A DNA stretch of 64,000 nt. It comes from Dysgonomonas hofstadii (GTDB taxonomy: Bacteria; Bacteroidota; Bacteroidia; Bacteroidales; Dysgonomonadaceae). The stretch spans positions 310,001 through 374,000 of the forward strand of contig NZ_JACIEP010000004.1 of NCBI RefSeq assembly GCF_014196915.1, written 5' to 3'. Shown here one piece after another: positions 1 through 42,639 of this stretch. Under the pieces are notes generated by a model that was not told where the DNA came from, ran no database searches, and was given only the letters and a program-made list of their open reading frames with translations. The position numbers and the translations under genes are program-made. Numbering within the stretch: the first letter of the stretch is position 1; each line of letters opens with the position of its first letter.

Positions 1-715
1 TCATATACATCAGGAATTCGGGTGTGGCACATGCCCCGCTAAGCATACTGGATACCATAAATACCATATTAATGAATCCTCCGCAAAAAGATTTAAGATT
101 GGTAGGAGCCTTTGAATTTCCACCAATAGAATTTGTTCCTCCAATCAACCATGGATACATGGTGATACTGGCACAGTAATTAGCCAGACTTGTTTCATCA
201 TTTTTATAGATGTAGTGATTATTCAGTAATTGAATGTAACGGTCTGATAGTTCCTTGCCATACATTTCCTTCAAACGGTCGGTAAGCATTCTGCGATTGA
301 GGCGGATAAAGTTTGATTTCGGTAATTCACCTATCAAGGTAGCCATATTCTTATTTTCAACATTTGCATTTGAGTCGTATTTGCTGCCTGATGCCGCATT
401 TTGTGCATCGCAATACTCCATAAGAAAGTTCAGCTTATCCCTTACCTCCCTGTCTTCAAGGTGTTTTTGCCTGTAAAGCATAAAAGATTTGGCTACCATG
501 TAATATCTTTCGGCCATCAGAGCGACTTCTACCTGATTTTGTATATCTTCAACGGTAGTACCGTTAGTAATACTTACACGGCTGAGTATATTTGTTATTA
601 CATCTTCAGTGGCAAAGCTTCCGACTGACAGGAATGCTTTAGCTACGGCATTCTTGATTTTTTCAAGAGAAAAAGGTTCTCTTTTTCCATCCCGTTTAAC
701 AATAAGTATCTCCAT
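1..715 (-). CDS. nrdD: Anaerobic (class III) ribonucleoside-triphosphate reductase NrdD, 5' part only
   Basis: The first 238 codons are visible and the frame stays open to the window edge. Class III reductase makes dNTPs from NTPs without oxygen, using a glycyl radical installed by NrdG. Residues 1 to about 95 look like an ATP-cone: the start MEILIVKRDGKREPF and the later segment VEDIQNQVEVALMAE are typical. From about residue 170 the sequence (NNHYIYKNDET, then FCGGFINMVF) matches the start of the NrdD catalytic barrel. The catalytic cysteine and glycyl-radical loop would lie outside the window. The ATG at 713-715 is chosen because the ATP-cone begins there and the cobalamin riboswitch lies just upstream. 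The ATP-cone plus this N-terminal barrel sequence makes a pyruvate formate-lyase identity unlikely. Regulation by cobalamin is inferred from the riboswitch. Confidence 0.9.
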   Translation of the reverse strand, partial: MEILIVKRDGKREPFSLEKIKNAVAKAFLSVGSFATEDVITNILSRVSITNGTTVEDIQNQVEVALMAERYYMVAKSFMLYRQKHLEDREVRDKLNFLMEYCDAQNAASGSKYDSNANVENKNMATLIGELPKSNFIRLNRRMLTDRLKEMYGKELSDRYIQLLNNHYIYKNDETSLANYCASITMYPWLIGGTNSIGGNSKAPTNLKSFCGGFINMVFMVSSMLSGACATPEFLMYM

Positions 716-855
716 AAGTTGAATTATAAAATGATTTCAATTTATTGGGAGAATCGTTGCAGAAGCAGAAAGCAGGAAGGTTTTTTACATTTGTGAAGTA
801 GCAATGTAAGTCATCCATCCTGTCGCTTTCACCCGAAGCTCCGGACTTTCCCTAA

Positions 856-1018
856 ATACGGCAGGTCTTCTGACTTATTTCAGAGTTAGACGCCTTCCCA
901 TCTTTTTTGTTTCTGACAGTGGCGCGAATGTCTAATTCTTTTACGAAATTTACAGCTACGGGGATAGTTCAGGACTTGCACCTGATTCCCTTTTATCCGA
1001 TTTTTGCCGGAACCGTAT
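856..1018 (-). promoter_or_regulatory. Cobalamin (B12) riboswitch upstream of nrdD
   Basis: Read on the minus strand, this carries the conserved blocks of a cobalamin aptamer in order: GGGAATCAGGTGCAAGTCCT, a CCGTAGCTGTAA block, GCCACTG, GGGAAGGCG and AGTCAGAAGACCTGCC. The ends pair as a P1 stem (ATACGG at 1013-1018 with CCGTAT at 856-861). About 140 nt lie between the aptamer and the nrdD start. They contain a possible hairpin around 805-850, which could be the expression platform. These elements normally switch genes off when cobalamin is bound. Class III reductase does not use B12, so the likely logic is repression when a B12-dependent reductase elsewhere can take over (inference). Confidence 0.93.
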
Positions 1019-1025
1019 ATGAAAA

Positions 1026-1033
1026 CAAAGGTA
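1026..1033 (-). promoter_or_regulatory. Bacteroidetes -7 promoter element for the nrdD riboswitch transcript
   Basis: On the minus strand this reads TACCTTTG, an exact match to the Bacteroidetes TAnnTTTG element. It would start transcription at about 1019, right at the P1 stem of the riboswitch. No clear TTTG-type -33 element is seen at the expected distance. Confidence 0.6.
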
Positions 1034-38248: not shown

Positions 38249-38253
38249 TTTCC

Positions 38254-38271
38254 GACTGTTTTTTAACAGTC
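38254..38271 (+). terminator. Hairpin terminator after tag
   Basis: GACTGTT and AACAGTC (7 bp) flank a TTTT loop, right after the tag stop codon. The tail (TTACTGTTT) is only moderately T-rich. Confidence 0.5.
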
Positions 38272-38373
38272 TTACTGTTTGTGAATCAAATGATTAAGTT
38301 GTATTTCAAAAATACTCTGTTTTTGAAATGCAAGATTCATGATAAATAAATTGATTAACCCCAATAAAAATTA

Positions 38374-38381
38374 TACATTTG
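38374..38381 (+). promoter_or_regulatory. -7 element of the pfl operon
   Basis: TACATTTG matches TAnnTTTG, with a TTG 20 nt upstream (38351-38353) as a weak -33 element. The predicted start near 38388 coincides with the P1 stem of the cobalamin riboswitch, so the transcript begins with the aptamer. Confidence 0.65.
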
Positions 38382-38387
38382 CACCGA

Positions 38388-38619
38388 ATTTTGGTGTTAT
38401 CTTTTATATTCTTAGATGATGATGAAAAGGGAATTGGGTGAAAATCCCAAACAGACCCGCTGCTGTAAACTCTGTAAGAATCTTTGGACAAAGCTCAATA
38501 CCACTGTCGAAAATAGTGAACAGTTAACAGGACGTAGTAATAATAAAGATTGATAACTGATGACTAAAGAGACGGGAAGGTTGTTCAGAGATAGAGTAAG
38601 TCAGAAGACCTGCCAAAAT
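38388..38619 (+). promoter_or_regulatory. Cobalamin (B12) riboswitch upstream of pflB
   Basis: The conserved cobalamin aptamer blocks are present in order: GGGAATTGGGTGAAAATCCC, ACAGACCCGCTGCTGTAA, CCACTG, GACGGGAAGG and GTCAGAAGACCTGCC. P1 forms between ATTTTGG (38388-38394) and CCAAAAT (38613-38619). A peripheral arm is long: CAGTTAACA at 38521-38529 pairs with TGATAACTG at 38551-38559. The leader then runs 143 nt to pflB and has two small hairpins (GAAG/CTTC at about 38632-38655; GTAAGC/GCTTGC at about 38703-38727) that could form the expression platform. By analogy cobalamin would reduce pflB expression. Confidence 0.93.
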
Positions 38620-38762
38620 ACTTGATGTTGTGAAGTTTTCGGGTTATAAAGCTTCAAAACGATCATATGTATTATATATCATTTAGAAAAGTTAAAATGT
38701 AGGTAAGCTGTTTTTATGGCTTGCTTCTTGAGTATATATTATTACACTAATTCAGTATAAAT

Positions 38763-40994
38763 ATGGATGCATATAGAAATTTTAATGGTACGGAATGGCA
38801 GGAAAAAATTGATGTAAATAATTTTATCCAGAAAAACTACACAGAATATAGCGGGGATGATTCCTTCCTTTGTGGCCCGACAGAGGCTACTTCAAAATTG
38901 TGGGAAAAGTTGTCTGACATGTTCAGGATCGAGCAAGAGAAAGGTATCTACGATGCCGAAACCAAAATACCATCACAGATAGATGCATATGGACCCGGTT
39001 ATATAGATAAAGATTTGGAAAAGATTGTTGGAGTTCAAACGGATAAACCACTGAAAAGGGCGATTTTCCCTAATGGTGGACTACGCATGGTACAACAAAG
39101 TCTCGAAGAATATGGATACAAACTGGATCCTATCACAACCGAAATATATAGTAAATACCGTAAGACTCATAACGAAGGCGTGTTTTCAGCATATACAGAT
39201 AGTATTCGCCGTGCACGTAGTAATGGTTTGTTGACCGGTCTGCCCGATGCATATGGGCGAGGACGTATTATCGGCGACTACCGCCGTATAGCATTGTATG
39301 GAGTGGACCGTTTGATGGCAGAGCGTGAAAAGCGTTTCCAGGAATGCGATCCTATTGTAATGACGGACGATCTGATCCGTCTTCGCGAAGAGTTAAGCTC
39401 TCAGATACAGGCACTGAAAGCGCTGAAACGCATGGCGGCAAGCTATGGATTCAATATCTCGCAACCAGCCAGAAGTGCTCAGGAAGCTATTCAATGGACA
39501 TATTTCGGGTATCTTGCCGCTATTAAAGATCAGAATGGCGCGGCAATGAGTCTCGGACGAGTAACTACATTCCTTGATATCTATATCGAAAGAGACCTTA
39601 AAGAAGGTGTAATAACAGAATCTGAAGCACAGGAATTGATAGATCATTTTATCATGAAATTGCGGATTGTCCGGTTCTTACGTACGAGTGAATATAATGA
39701 ATTATTTTCGGGAGACCCGGTGTGGGTGACTGAGTCGATAGGCGGTATGGCAAACAATGGTAAATCGATGGTTACCAAGAACAGTTATCGTATGCTTCAT
39801 ACGTTATATAACCTGGGGCCTGCACCTGAACCGAATCTCACAATCCTGTGGAGCGATCGTCTGCCGGAAAACTGGAAACGTTATTGTGCTAAGGTATCTA
39901 TCGATACATCTTCACTCCAATATGAAAATGACGATCTGATGCGTCCGCAGTTAGGTGATGATTATGGCATCGCTTGCTGTGTATCACCGATGCGTATAGG
40001 TCAGCAGATGCAGTTTTTCGGAGCCCGTGCCAATCTGCCTAAAGCATTATTGTACACAATAAACGGAGGTAAAGATGAAATCACCAATGCTCAGGTACTA
40101 CCTAAGCACTGGGTTGAAAAAGTTTCCGGTGATTATCTTGATTTCGAAGAGGTTTGGGCGAAATTTGACCGTACATTAGACTGGGTTGCCGAAACTTATG
40201 TGAAAGCATTAAATATCATCCATTACATGCATGACAAATATTCATACGAAGCTCTTGAGATGGCACTTCATGATGTGGATATAGTTCGTACGCAAGCCTT
40301 TGGTATTTCGGGATTATCTATCATTGCCGATTCTTTTGCTGCCATCAAATACGGTAAGGTGCGTATTGTAAGGAATGAAAACGGTGATGCGATAGATTAT
40401 GTTATTGAAGAAGATTATGTCCCATTCGGAAACAATGATGATAAGACTGATAAGTTTGCGGTAGAGATTGTAGAAAAGTTTATGAATAAAATCCGTAAAC
40501 GTAAAATGTATAAAGACGCGATACCTACTCAATCGGTATTGACCATTACATCGAATGTCGTATACGGAAAGAAAACAGGCAATACACCTGACGGACGTCG
40601 GGGTGGTACTCCGTTTGCACCGGGAGCTAATCCTATGCACGGGCGGGATATAAGAGGGGCGGTAGCATCACTTTCTTCTGTGGCCAAACTTCCGTTTGAG
40701 CATGCAAACGATGGTATATCATATACATTTGCAATTACACCTAACACACTGGGAAAGGGTAGGGAGGAAGAAGCAAAGAACCTTAGCGGATTGCTTGACG
40801 CATACTTCCTTCAAACAGGTCATCACCTGAATGTAAACGTCTTTGACCGCCAGTTATTGGTTGATGCGATGGAGCACCCTGAGCAGTATCCGCAACTTAC
40901 GATTCGTGTATCAGGTTATGCAGTCAACTTTATTAAGCTTACACGCGAACAACAACTTGATGTTATAAACAGGACGATAACAACTGATTTTTAA
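38763..40994 (+). CDS. pflB: Pyruvate formate-lyase (formate C-acetyltransferase)
   Basis: 743 residues, full length for the family (about 740-760). It cleaves pyruvate with CoA to acetyl-CoA and formate in anaerobic cells, using a glycyl radical. The two catalytic cysteines are Cys405-Cys406 in GIACCVSPM, and the radical glycine is Gly718 in RVSGYAVNF near the C-terminus. Both are intact. Downstream are its activase and a formate channel, a standard operon. The unusual part is the cobalamin riboswitch in front: the enzyme itself does not use B12. An alternative glycyl-radical enzyme (glycerol dehydratase or choline lyase type) is unlikely because of the Cys-Cys pair. Confidence 0.96.
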
Positions 40995-41096: not shown

Positions 41097-41816
41097 ATGA
41101 AGGGCTATCTTCATTCTTTTGAATCATTCGGGACAAAAGATGGACCGGGTATACGTTTCGTCGTTTTTATGCAAGGATGTCCTCTCCGGTGTCTTTACTG
41201 CCATAATCCTGACACATGGAATATGTCGGATAATAGGATAGAAATGACTACTGATGAAGTTTTTGCGGAAATAAAGAAAGTGAAAAATTTCATCAGGACG
41301 GGAGGCGTGACCCTGTCGGGAGGCGAACCTCTTTTACAACCCGGGTTTGCATTAAAACTATTTAAGATATGTAAAGAACATAATATTCACACAGCTATTG
41401 ATACCTCAGGTATATTCTTGAACGACAGGGTAAAAGAAGTGCTTGAATATACCGATCTCGTTCTGCTTGATATTAAACATATTAATTCTGATAAATATAA
41501 AGAATTAACCGGCGCCAGCTTAGAGCCTACATTAAAATTTGCTGAATATCTGGCTACGATTAATAAACCTTTCTGGTTACGCTATGTGTTAGTTCCCGGT
41601 TTTACAGATGATAAGAACGATTTAAAAAACCTGGCTAAATATGTGTCCCGTTTCAGGAATCTGGAAAAGGTGGATATTCTGCCGTTTCATCAGATGGCTA
41701 CTCATAAGTGGAAAGAATTGGGCCTGAATTATAAACTGGAAAATATACAGCCTCCACTAATTGAAGATATAAAAAAAGGAGAAGACATATTCAGAGAAAA
41801 CGGATTAATGATTTAG
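41097..41816 (+). CDS. pflA: Pyruvate formate-lyase activating enzyme (radical SAM)
   Basis: 239 residues from the ATG at 41097 (a TTG directly before it is in frame but unneeded). It uses SAM and a 4Fe-4S cluster to install the glycyl radical on PflB. The radical-SAM motif CPLRCLYCHNPDTW holds the three cluster Cys (CxxxCxxC), preceded by FGTKDGPGIRFVVFMQG, the usual PflA N-terminus. A GGEP-type SAM-binding motif follows (GGVTLSGGEPLLQP). The end VDILPFHQMATHKWKELGL is typical of the family. Encoded downstream of pflB and 19 nt upstream of focA. Confidence 0.96.
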   Translation: MKGYLHSFESFGTKDGPGIRFVVFMQGCPLRCLYCHNPDTWNMSDNRIEMTTDEVFAEIKKVKNFIRTGGVTLSGGEPLLQPGFALKLFKICKEHNIHTAIDTSGIFLNDRVKEVLEYTDLVLLDIKHINSDKYKELTGASLEPTLKFAEYLATINKPFWLRYVLVPGFTDDKNDLKNLAKYVSRFRNLEKVDILPFHQMATHKWKELGLNYKLENIQPPLIEDIKKGEDIFRENGLMI

Positions 41817-41835: not shown

Positions 41836-42639
41836 ATGGCAAACTATTATTCACCGGAAGAAACAACTTCAAACTTTGCAGCATCTGCTATTTATAAGAA
41901 AAATCTATCCCTATTTAAATTTATGCTAATAGCCCTTCTTGGAGGAGCTTTCATTGCTTTTGGCGGTTTATTGTCTGTCATGGTTGCAGGAGGAATGCCA
42001 GGGGTAGGGGAGTCTAACCCCGGCTTGATAAAGTTTATCGCCGGAGCATTATTCCCTGTAGGATTGATTATGGTTTCTATAACAGGAGCCGATCTTTTTA
42101 CGAGCGATTGCGCCGCTTTTTCTTTTCCTTTATTACAAAAAGAAATCAGAATAAAACAATTTTGTAAACTATTACTTTTGTCTTATTTGTTTAATTTTGT
42201 AGGTACGCAGCTTATTGCTTTCGTGCTTTCCTATGAAGTAGGATTATTGGATAAAAATCCATGGCAGGTCTATTTACATCATTATGCAGAGTCAAAAATC
42301 AATCAGGATTTCATAAAAGTATTTATTAAAGGGATTGGTGCAAACTGGCTTGTTTGTCTGGGGATGTTTATGGGGTACGCAGCAAAAGACATTACGGGTA
42401 AATGTGTTGCTATCTGGATTCCGGTAATGTTATTTGTAACGCTGGGTTATGAACACTCTGTAGCCAATATGTTTTTTATTCCTGCCGCTATTTATTCCGG
42501 AGCAGATATAACCTGGGGAACTTTCTTTTTCCAAAATCTTATTCCTGCGACAATAGGCAACCTGATTGGTGGAGCTTTTCTGGTTGGCTGTGTATATTGG
42601 TATTTATTTTTGAAAGAGGAGAGGTCATGTAAGTCTTAA
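41836..42639 (+). CDS. focA: Formate/nitrite transporter family channel (FocA-like)
   Basis: 267 residues, six membrane helices as in FNT channels (about 30-52, 65-87, 110-132, 160-182, 190-212, 235-257). Family features include GGAFIAFGGLLSVMVAGGMP in helix 1, and ITGADLFTSDCAAF after helix 2, which corresponds to the constriction region. The selectivity His of the family is likely the one in LGYEHSVANMFFIP. It would let formate made by PflB leave, or re-enter, the cell. Position directly after pflA supports formate rather than nitrite. Confidence 0.92.
   Translation: MANYYSPEETTSNFAASAIYKKNLSLFKFMLIALLGGAFIAFGGLLSVMVAGGMPGVGESNPGLIKFIAGALFPVGLIMVSITGADLFTSDCAAFSFPLLQKEIRIKQFCKLLLLSYLFNFVGTQLIAFVLSYEVGLLDKNPWQVYLHHYAESKINQDFIKVFIKGIGANWLVCLGMFMGYAAKDITGKCVAIWIPVMLFVTLGYEHSVANMFFIPAAIYSGADITWGTFFFQNLIPATIGNLIGGAFLVGCVYWYLFLKEERSCKS

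Follow-up and report, generated by a model that had tools for sequence, protein, structure and literature searches.

Why should an RNA that resembles a cobalamin sensor stand in front of the genes for pyruvate formate-lyase (PFL)? PFL produces formate and, to our knowledge, has no B12-dependent counterpart. The locus lies in the window, the whole 64,000-nucleotide stretch of Dysgonomonas hofstadii DNA that was analysed. Genomes carry our own numbers, G000 being the window's genome, and positions are those of the window unless a locus number (L) precedes them.

The pflB leader contains a cobalamin aptamer

An earlier note on this DNA had recognized a cobalamin aptamer with a closing P1 stem in the pflB leader, and had asked for a covariance-model search. 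By cmscan the leader scored 92.0 bits with the Rfam model RF00174, for which the cut-off is 31.5, so the score is far from poor. The match spans all 189 model positions with E = 1.6e-21 for the whole window, and Cobalamin is the only Rfam family that cmscan reported at the leader. The P1 stem was likewise located: its 5' strand starts where the earlier note began its feature (38388) and pairs with 38613-38619 (Table 1).

Table 1. Positions of the features discussed in the text.
Feature	Position	Strand	Evidence or remark
nrdD (SCCR type), 5' part; exits the window on the left	1..715	-	L186:4126-6216; TIGR02827, 950.4 bits; PF13597
Second cobalamin riboswitch, leads nrdDG	843..1032	-	cmscan, 102.9 bits
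Promoter-like elements (TTG, 38351-38353; TAnnTTTG box, 38374-38381)	38351..38381	+	script search for TAnnTTTG
Cobalamin riboswitch aptamer (RF00174)	38375..38631	+	cmscan, 92.0 bits; gathering score 31.5
P1, 5' strand	38388..38394	+	pairs with 38613-38619; sequence and cmscan alignment
L5, ACCCG	38455..38459	+	sequence; complementary to L13
Variable P6 arm, extended	38508..38572	+	~60 bases unaligned to the model; cmscan alignment, leader comparison
B12 box, AGTCAGAAGACCTGCC	38599..38614	+	sequence and cmscan alignment
P13 hairpin	38631..38656	+	fold; loop CGGGU (38640-38644) complementary to L5
Second leader hairpin	38701..38726	+	fold of 38690-38775, whose energy is not below shuffles (z -0.05)
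pflB, pyruvate formate-lyase	38763..40994	+	TIGR01255, 1148.8 bits; cut-off 994.2
pflA, PFL-activating enzyme	41097..41816	+	TIGR02493, 334.9 bits; cut-off 231.75
focA-like formate/nitrite family transporter	41836..42639	+	TIGR00790, 249.5 bits; cut-off 232.3

By their complementarity the loops of L5 (ACCCG) and P13 (CGGGU) are predicted kissing-loop partners. CGGG is found in the P13 loop of 12/14 intact pfl leaders, and G005 and G024 have CGAG. The P13 fold has an energy of -7.2 kcal/mol, which was equalled by 10/200 shuffles.

Two kinds of repeated sequence were seen by eye in the leaders. Repeats of the AGTTAACTG type extend the P6 arm in the window (38508-38572) and in G009, G018, G019, G021 and G023; they look like a small palindromic element that has settled in this variable arm. 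Upstream of pflB, the leaders of G008, G010, G014, G019 and G031 contain a palindrome rich in A+T, of the type AAGTTATA...TATAACTT; none was seen by eye in the G000 pfl leader.

The aptamer stands directly before pflB, which is followed by pflA, and to this extent the pflB-pflA-focA operon of the earlier note holds. Its third gene passed TIGR00790 and failed the FocA equivalog model TIGR04060 (178.7 against a cut-off of 290.1), and is therefore called focA-like here. The gene run extends past the end of the feature in the earlier note (40994), to 42639. The named sequences closest to pflB come from Dysgonomonas sp. 521 (90% identity) and other Dysgonomonas, in a comparison from which records of the genome itself may be missing.

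Promoter and switching step

The TAnnTTTG box, which we take to be the Bacteroidetes promoter consensus, starts 1 base 5' of the Rfam match in the window. A script search found the box in 14/14 intact pfl leaders, and in the other 13 it starts 0 to 2 bases 5' of the match. Its position suggests a transcript start at or near P1, in keeping with an earlier proposal that the promoter starts at P1. A scan of 38250-38800 produced three terminator-like sites, none of them between the aptamer and pflB: the site at 38254-38271 follows the upstream gene, while the other two overlap the aptamer. With no such site ahead of pflB, the putative riboswitch perhaps acts at the level of translation. We infer that the RNA binds cobalamin and is an OFF switch, the direction being taken from the family.

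Distribution of the pfl switch

The earlier note had also called for a survey of pflB leaders across the family, and this places the switch in two genera. A PFL-family match was found in 60/101 genomes of the family, and 25 of these genomes belong to the window's genus (g1) or to one related genus (g3). An intact switch is present in 14 of the 25, a broken one in 1, none in 9, and 1 (G007) is not assignable. Each intact switch shares the strand of pflB and stands directly 5' of it (G000, G005, G008, G009, G014, G018, G019, G021, G023, G024 and G029-G032), and in G018 the switch precedes a pflB piece at a contig end. The broken switch, in G010, is a 32.8-bit remnant without the B12 box and P13. 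The g1/g3 genomes with no pfl switch are G006, G011, G012, G013, G025, G026, G027, G033 and G034. G007 could not be judged, since its pflB match begins 30 bases from the end of contig C28 (L118) and contains an in-frame TGA. Judged by the listed coordinates, 0/35 of the other PFL genomes of the family have a switch upstream of the PFL match, some of these matches being at contig ends.

At the order level, a PflB match was found in 193/393 genomes, including 49 matches from outside the family at identities of at least 54%. An Rfam scan gave a cobalamin match at 0/46 of these pflB loci (G375, G372 and G177 were left out of the 49, and at G115 only ~230 bases before pflB lay within the scan). A two-motif screen of 80 pflB loci from the genome_contigs collection (control 12/12) gave one with a switch, from Dysgonomonas sp. 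HGC4.

Eleven switch-less loci were searched for remains of a switch. No cobalamin match was found there by cmscan, which recovered the known G010 remnant. A relic search in 11 switch-less leaders raised only G034, a one-contig genome, above its shuffles (67 against a mean of 35.4, sd 5.2 and maximum of 54). The control was 200 letter shuffles scored against one leader and the real score was the best over several leaders, so the real score is slightly favoured. G027, a genome without an NrdD match, scored 57 against a shuffle maximum of 61, over a promoter stretch.

In some genomes the first-look candidates were scored only in part, and switches outside the rescanned loci may be missed. G036 was dropped since its PFL match is not pflB, G033 (62% complete) was left out of most counts, and G018, for which a wrong reading frame had been used (branch 3.63), was left out of the protein trees.

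Other cobalamin switches in the window's genome

G000 has five cobalamin matches. Two lead to TonB-dependent receptors, one to a BACON/DUF5074 protein, one to nrdDG and one to pflB-pflA-focA-like; both of the switch-led enzyme operons therefore encode glycyl-radical enzymes. Neither a class I ribonucleotide reductase (RNR) small subunit nor MetE had a match in this genome. A DUF2284 gene (Pfam) adjoins nrdD divergently in G000 (L186:6711-7313, +), and a gene of similar sequence is found there in G023 (L129:1331-2008, -).

Two types of NrdD and the pfl switch

NrdD was found in 17 g1/g3 genomes. In 17/17 the gene has a same-strand cobalamin switch in front of it, separated from it by two genes in G030. 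The proteins fall into two types. The formate type has MGCRT and RGN[LI]SF motifs and is nearest to the P. copri NrdD, to which the G009 protein matches with 1325 bits and the divergent G029 form with 650 bits. The other type is marked by an SCCR motif, its closest match being the T. maritima NrdD (237 bits). All 31 of the NrdD proteins checked fit one of the two motif patterns; these 31 were typed by motif, and for G071, G072 and every PFL-less genome the type was assigned by score alone. P. copri NrdD requires formate, as stated in PMC11226230. According to the account in PMC4493059, formate failed with T. maritima NrdD and a protein fraction was required.

The features of a formate-using NrdD1 (the MGCRT finger-loop cysteine, Asn for the third Cys, and no SCCR) are found in 12/14 genomes with an intact pfl switch. 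One exception is G021, which has no NrdD match in a genome that is 94% complete. The other is G000 itself: its NrdD has SCCR, lacks the MGCRT and RGN motifs, departs from the NrdD1 pattern, and has the T. maritima protein as its nearest solved chain. Use of formate is not expected of the window's NrdD.

Presence of a formate-type NrdD was compared with presence of the pfl switch in 30 genomes. Twelve have both, 4 have the NrdD only, 2 the switch only and 12 neither (Fisher p 0.0013, kinship ignored); here G010 was entered as broken, G018 was included, and G033 and G093 were left out. For g1/g3 alone the table is 12/2/2/7 (p 0.0066, kinship ignored). Counting G010 among the carriers and omitting G018 gives 11/4/3/11 (p 0.009, kinship ignored), and taking any NrdD instead of the formate type gives 12/8/1/8 (p 0.02, kinship ignored). 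G093, which was left out of the Fisher tables, has a formate-type NrdD and no pfl switch in its short contig. On the NrdJ+PflB tree there are ~2.4 independent concordant pairs and 0.1 opposite, too few for p 0.05 to be within reach when kinship is considered. Formate-type NrdD, by score, is found in 18/60 PFL-bearing and 3/41 PFL-less genomes of the family (p 0.006), and the SCCR type has no such bias (15/60 and 7/41, p 0.46).

The strongest points are qualitative. In the sister pair G009/G023 the order is switch-nrdD-nrdG-switch-pflB-pflA-focA, and in the sister pair G005/G024 it is switch-pflB-pflA-switch-nrdD; pfl and nrdD thus adjoin each other with separate switches in two orders. In G010, with the broken switch, and in G034, with the relic, NrdD had no match. 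G025, which lies within a switch-bearing clade, has neither a pfl switch nor an NrdD match.

Descent of the pfl switch as a copy of the nrdD switch was considered and rejected. In the aptamer tree, which has many weak branches, the nrdD switches (13 of type A and 3/4 of the SCCR type) stand apart, and the pfl switches lie among uptake and other switches.

B12-dependent enzymes and propionate

The earlier note had suggested a link to B12-dependent propionate formation. Methylmalonyl-CoA mutase was matched in 37/37 of the tested genomes, whether or not these have the pfl switch, and so was NrdJ, the B12-dependent RNR; the two enzymes therefore explain neither the presence nor the absence of the switch, and mutase distribution was discarded as uninformative about propionate. 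Succinate and propionate do not differ in redox level, so an idle mutase alone calls for no further redox outlet. The suggested link thus found no specific support, and the pfl switch is better matched by the presence of a formate-type NrdD.

Further cobalamin switches were seen near nrdD or pfl in relatives. One, next to nrdD or pfl, stands before a pair of ThrE/ThrE_2-type exporter genes (L116:5794-7328, L130:6016-7550, L129:78-1083, L192:12346-13883 and L193:6802-8324); the pair was assigned by Pfam in G005 only, by sequence resemblance in G024 and G023, and by place and gene size in G007 and G008. YjjPB of E. coli, from the same families, is a succinate exporter. Another follows nrdDG and precedes an acyl-CoA carboxylase operon with genes for carboxyltransferase, biotin carboxylase and biotin carrier (L192:4479-8287, L193:1-2958 and L207:2227-6029), for which three subunits were tested by Pfam in G007 and one in G008, G094 being assigned by gene sizes.

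A proposed formate supply for NrdD and its alternatives

We give an even chance to the explanation that the B12 switch represses pflB-pflA-focA-like while cobalamin is plentiful, and that in shortage the formate made by PFL feeds a formate-type NrdD. Transcription from the promoter at P1 would produce a leader with the cobalamin riboswitch; plentiful cobalamin would keep the operon repressed and scarcity would release it. As B12 falls, NrdJ would fail and the nrdDG switch would release nrdDG. Release of pfl alongside nrdDG would secure formate as the reductant of NrdD, and pfl and nrdDG would belong to one regulon for B12 shortage, in which nrdDG replaces NrdJ without a need for B12. Most of the class III RNRs studied consume formate, and a link between PFL and RNR is noted in a review (PMC4390871). 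Somewhat short of an even chance is the more general idea that a cofactor switch controls the supply chain of a cofactor-free backup and not only the backup, NrdDG and PFL being one B12-shortage module in Dysgonomonas-like bacteria that is lost with NrdD.

Several genomes speak against formate supply. Despite an intact pfl switch, G000 encodes an NrdD of the SCCR type. The intact switch of G021 is accompanied by no NrdD match, and conversely the switch is missing in G012, G026, G089 and G094, where NrdD belongs to the formate type. In G003, G020 and G082 an NrdD assigned by score to the formate type occurs with no PFL match, which suggests that PFL is not indispensable. In addition, the pfl and nrdD switches do not group in the aptamer tree.

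Re-routing of fermentation would work independently of NrdD: with the mutase idle, PFL and formate transport would be raised and the end products shifted, an explanation of the kind offered in the earlier note. Re-routing suits G000, which lacks a formate-type NrdD, and the mutase it presupposes is in 37/37 genomes. Since switches near nrdD in relatives also lead the ThrE/ThrE_2 pair and the acyl-CoA carboxylase, a wider metabolic response is favoured and a broader fermentation role may exist. However, the mutase is found regardless of the pfl switch, decay of the switch accompanies the absence of NrdD and not of the mutase, and the equal redox level of succinate and propionate is a further difficulty. 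The misfits (G000, G021, the switch-less genomes with NrdD, and the ThrE and carboxylase switches) are the reason why formate supply is held at an even chance and re-routing is considered unlikely but worth serious attention.

Formate might instead be wanted for one-carbon metabolism, as formyl-tetrahydrofolate, when B12 shortage idles MetH and MetE is mostly missing. A MetE family match was indeed found in only 2/20 genomes, G000 not among them, but MetE is missing with and without the pfl switch, and we regard this as improbable. More improbable still is that the G000 switch has lost its function and merely survives from an ancestor whose NrdD was of the formate type; G010 and G034 demonstrate that pfl switches decay, but the G000 copy retains P1, the B12 box, and the L5-L13 complementarity, and it scores 92.0 bits. 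That the aptamer match arose by chance or has no action on pflB is scarcely credible. The lack of a terminator-like site between aptamer and pflB would fit it, but the E value is very low, and 14 genomes have the match on the same strand, in the same place and with the promoter-like box.

Under the preferred explanation, formate supply for NrdD, the SCCR-type NrdD of G000 means that its pfl coupling would either date back to ancestors that had a formate-type NrdD or be part of a broader programme for life without B12. If formate supply is correct, cobalamin riboswitches would reach beyond B12 synthesis, uptake and isozymes and also control a central carbon enzyme. Vitamin supply would be coupled to the output of formate and the synthesis of DNA precursors in Dysgonomonas-like anaerobes. 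Species with a formate-type NrdD would then be predicted to need formate for DNA synthesis only under B12 scarcity.

Comparison with known systems

In one survey (PMC3766115) the targets of cobalamin switches form four classes, namely synthesis, transport of B12, transport of cobalt, and isozymes, and the word formate is absent from its main text. The earlier note had placed formate-lyase outside the standard targets, and at the level of titles and abstract beginnings we found no report of pfl as a target, which is no proof of its absence in print. Papers on Listeria and on Catenibacillus contain both terms, the cobalamin riboswitch and pyruvate formate-lyase. The ZMP riboswitch, or 'pfl motif', has a name that recalls formate and one-carbon genes (PMC7337938), but it is another RNA family with another ligand, and the pflB leader here matches only Cobalamin by cmscan. 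The leader resembles RF00174 systems with an L5-L13 kissing loop, which has been described for the cobalamin class (PMC9600662), in its aptamer score, B12 box and a P13 loop complementary to L5. It differs in its target, pflB-pflA-focA-like; P13 follows the aptamer, and the stretch from there to pflB has no terminator-like site. A close parallel is cobalamin-switch control of B12-independent isozymes, which like the pfl operon would be expected to be ON in B12 shortage; the nrdDG operon of G000 fits that class. PFL, as assigned by TIGR01255, has no B12-dependent counterpart that we know of and is thus no isozyme of a B12-dependent enzyme, but it may supply the substrate of one such isozyme.
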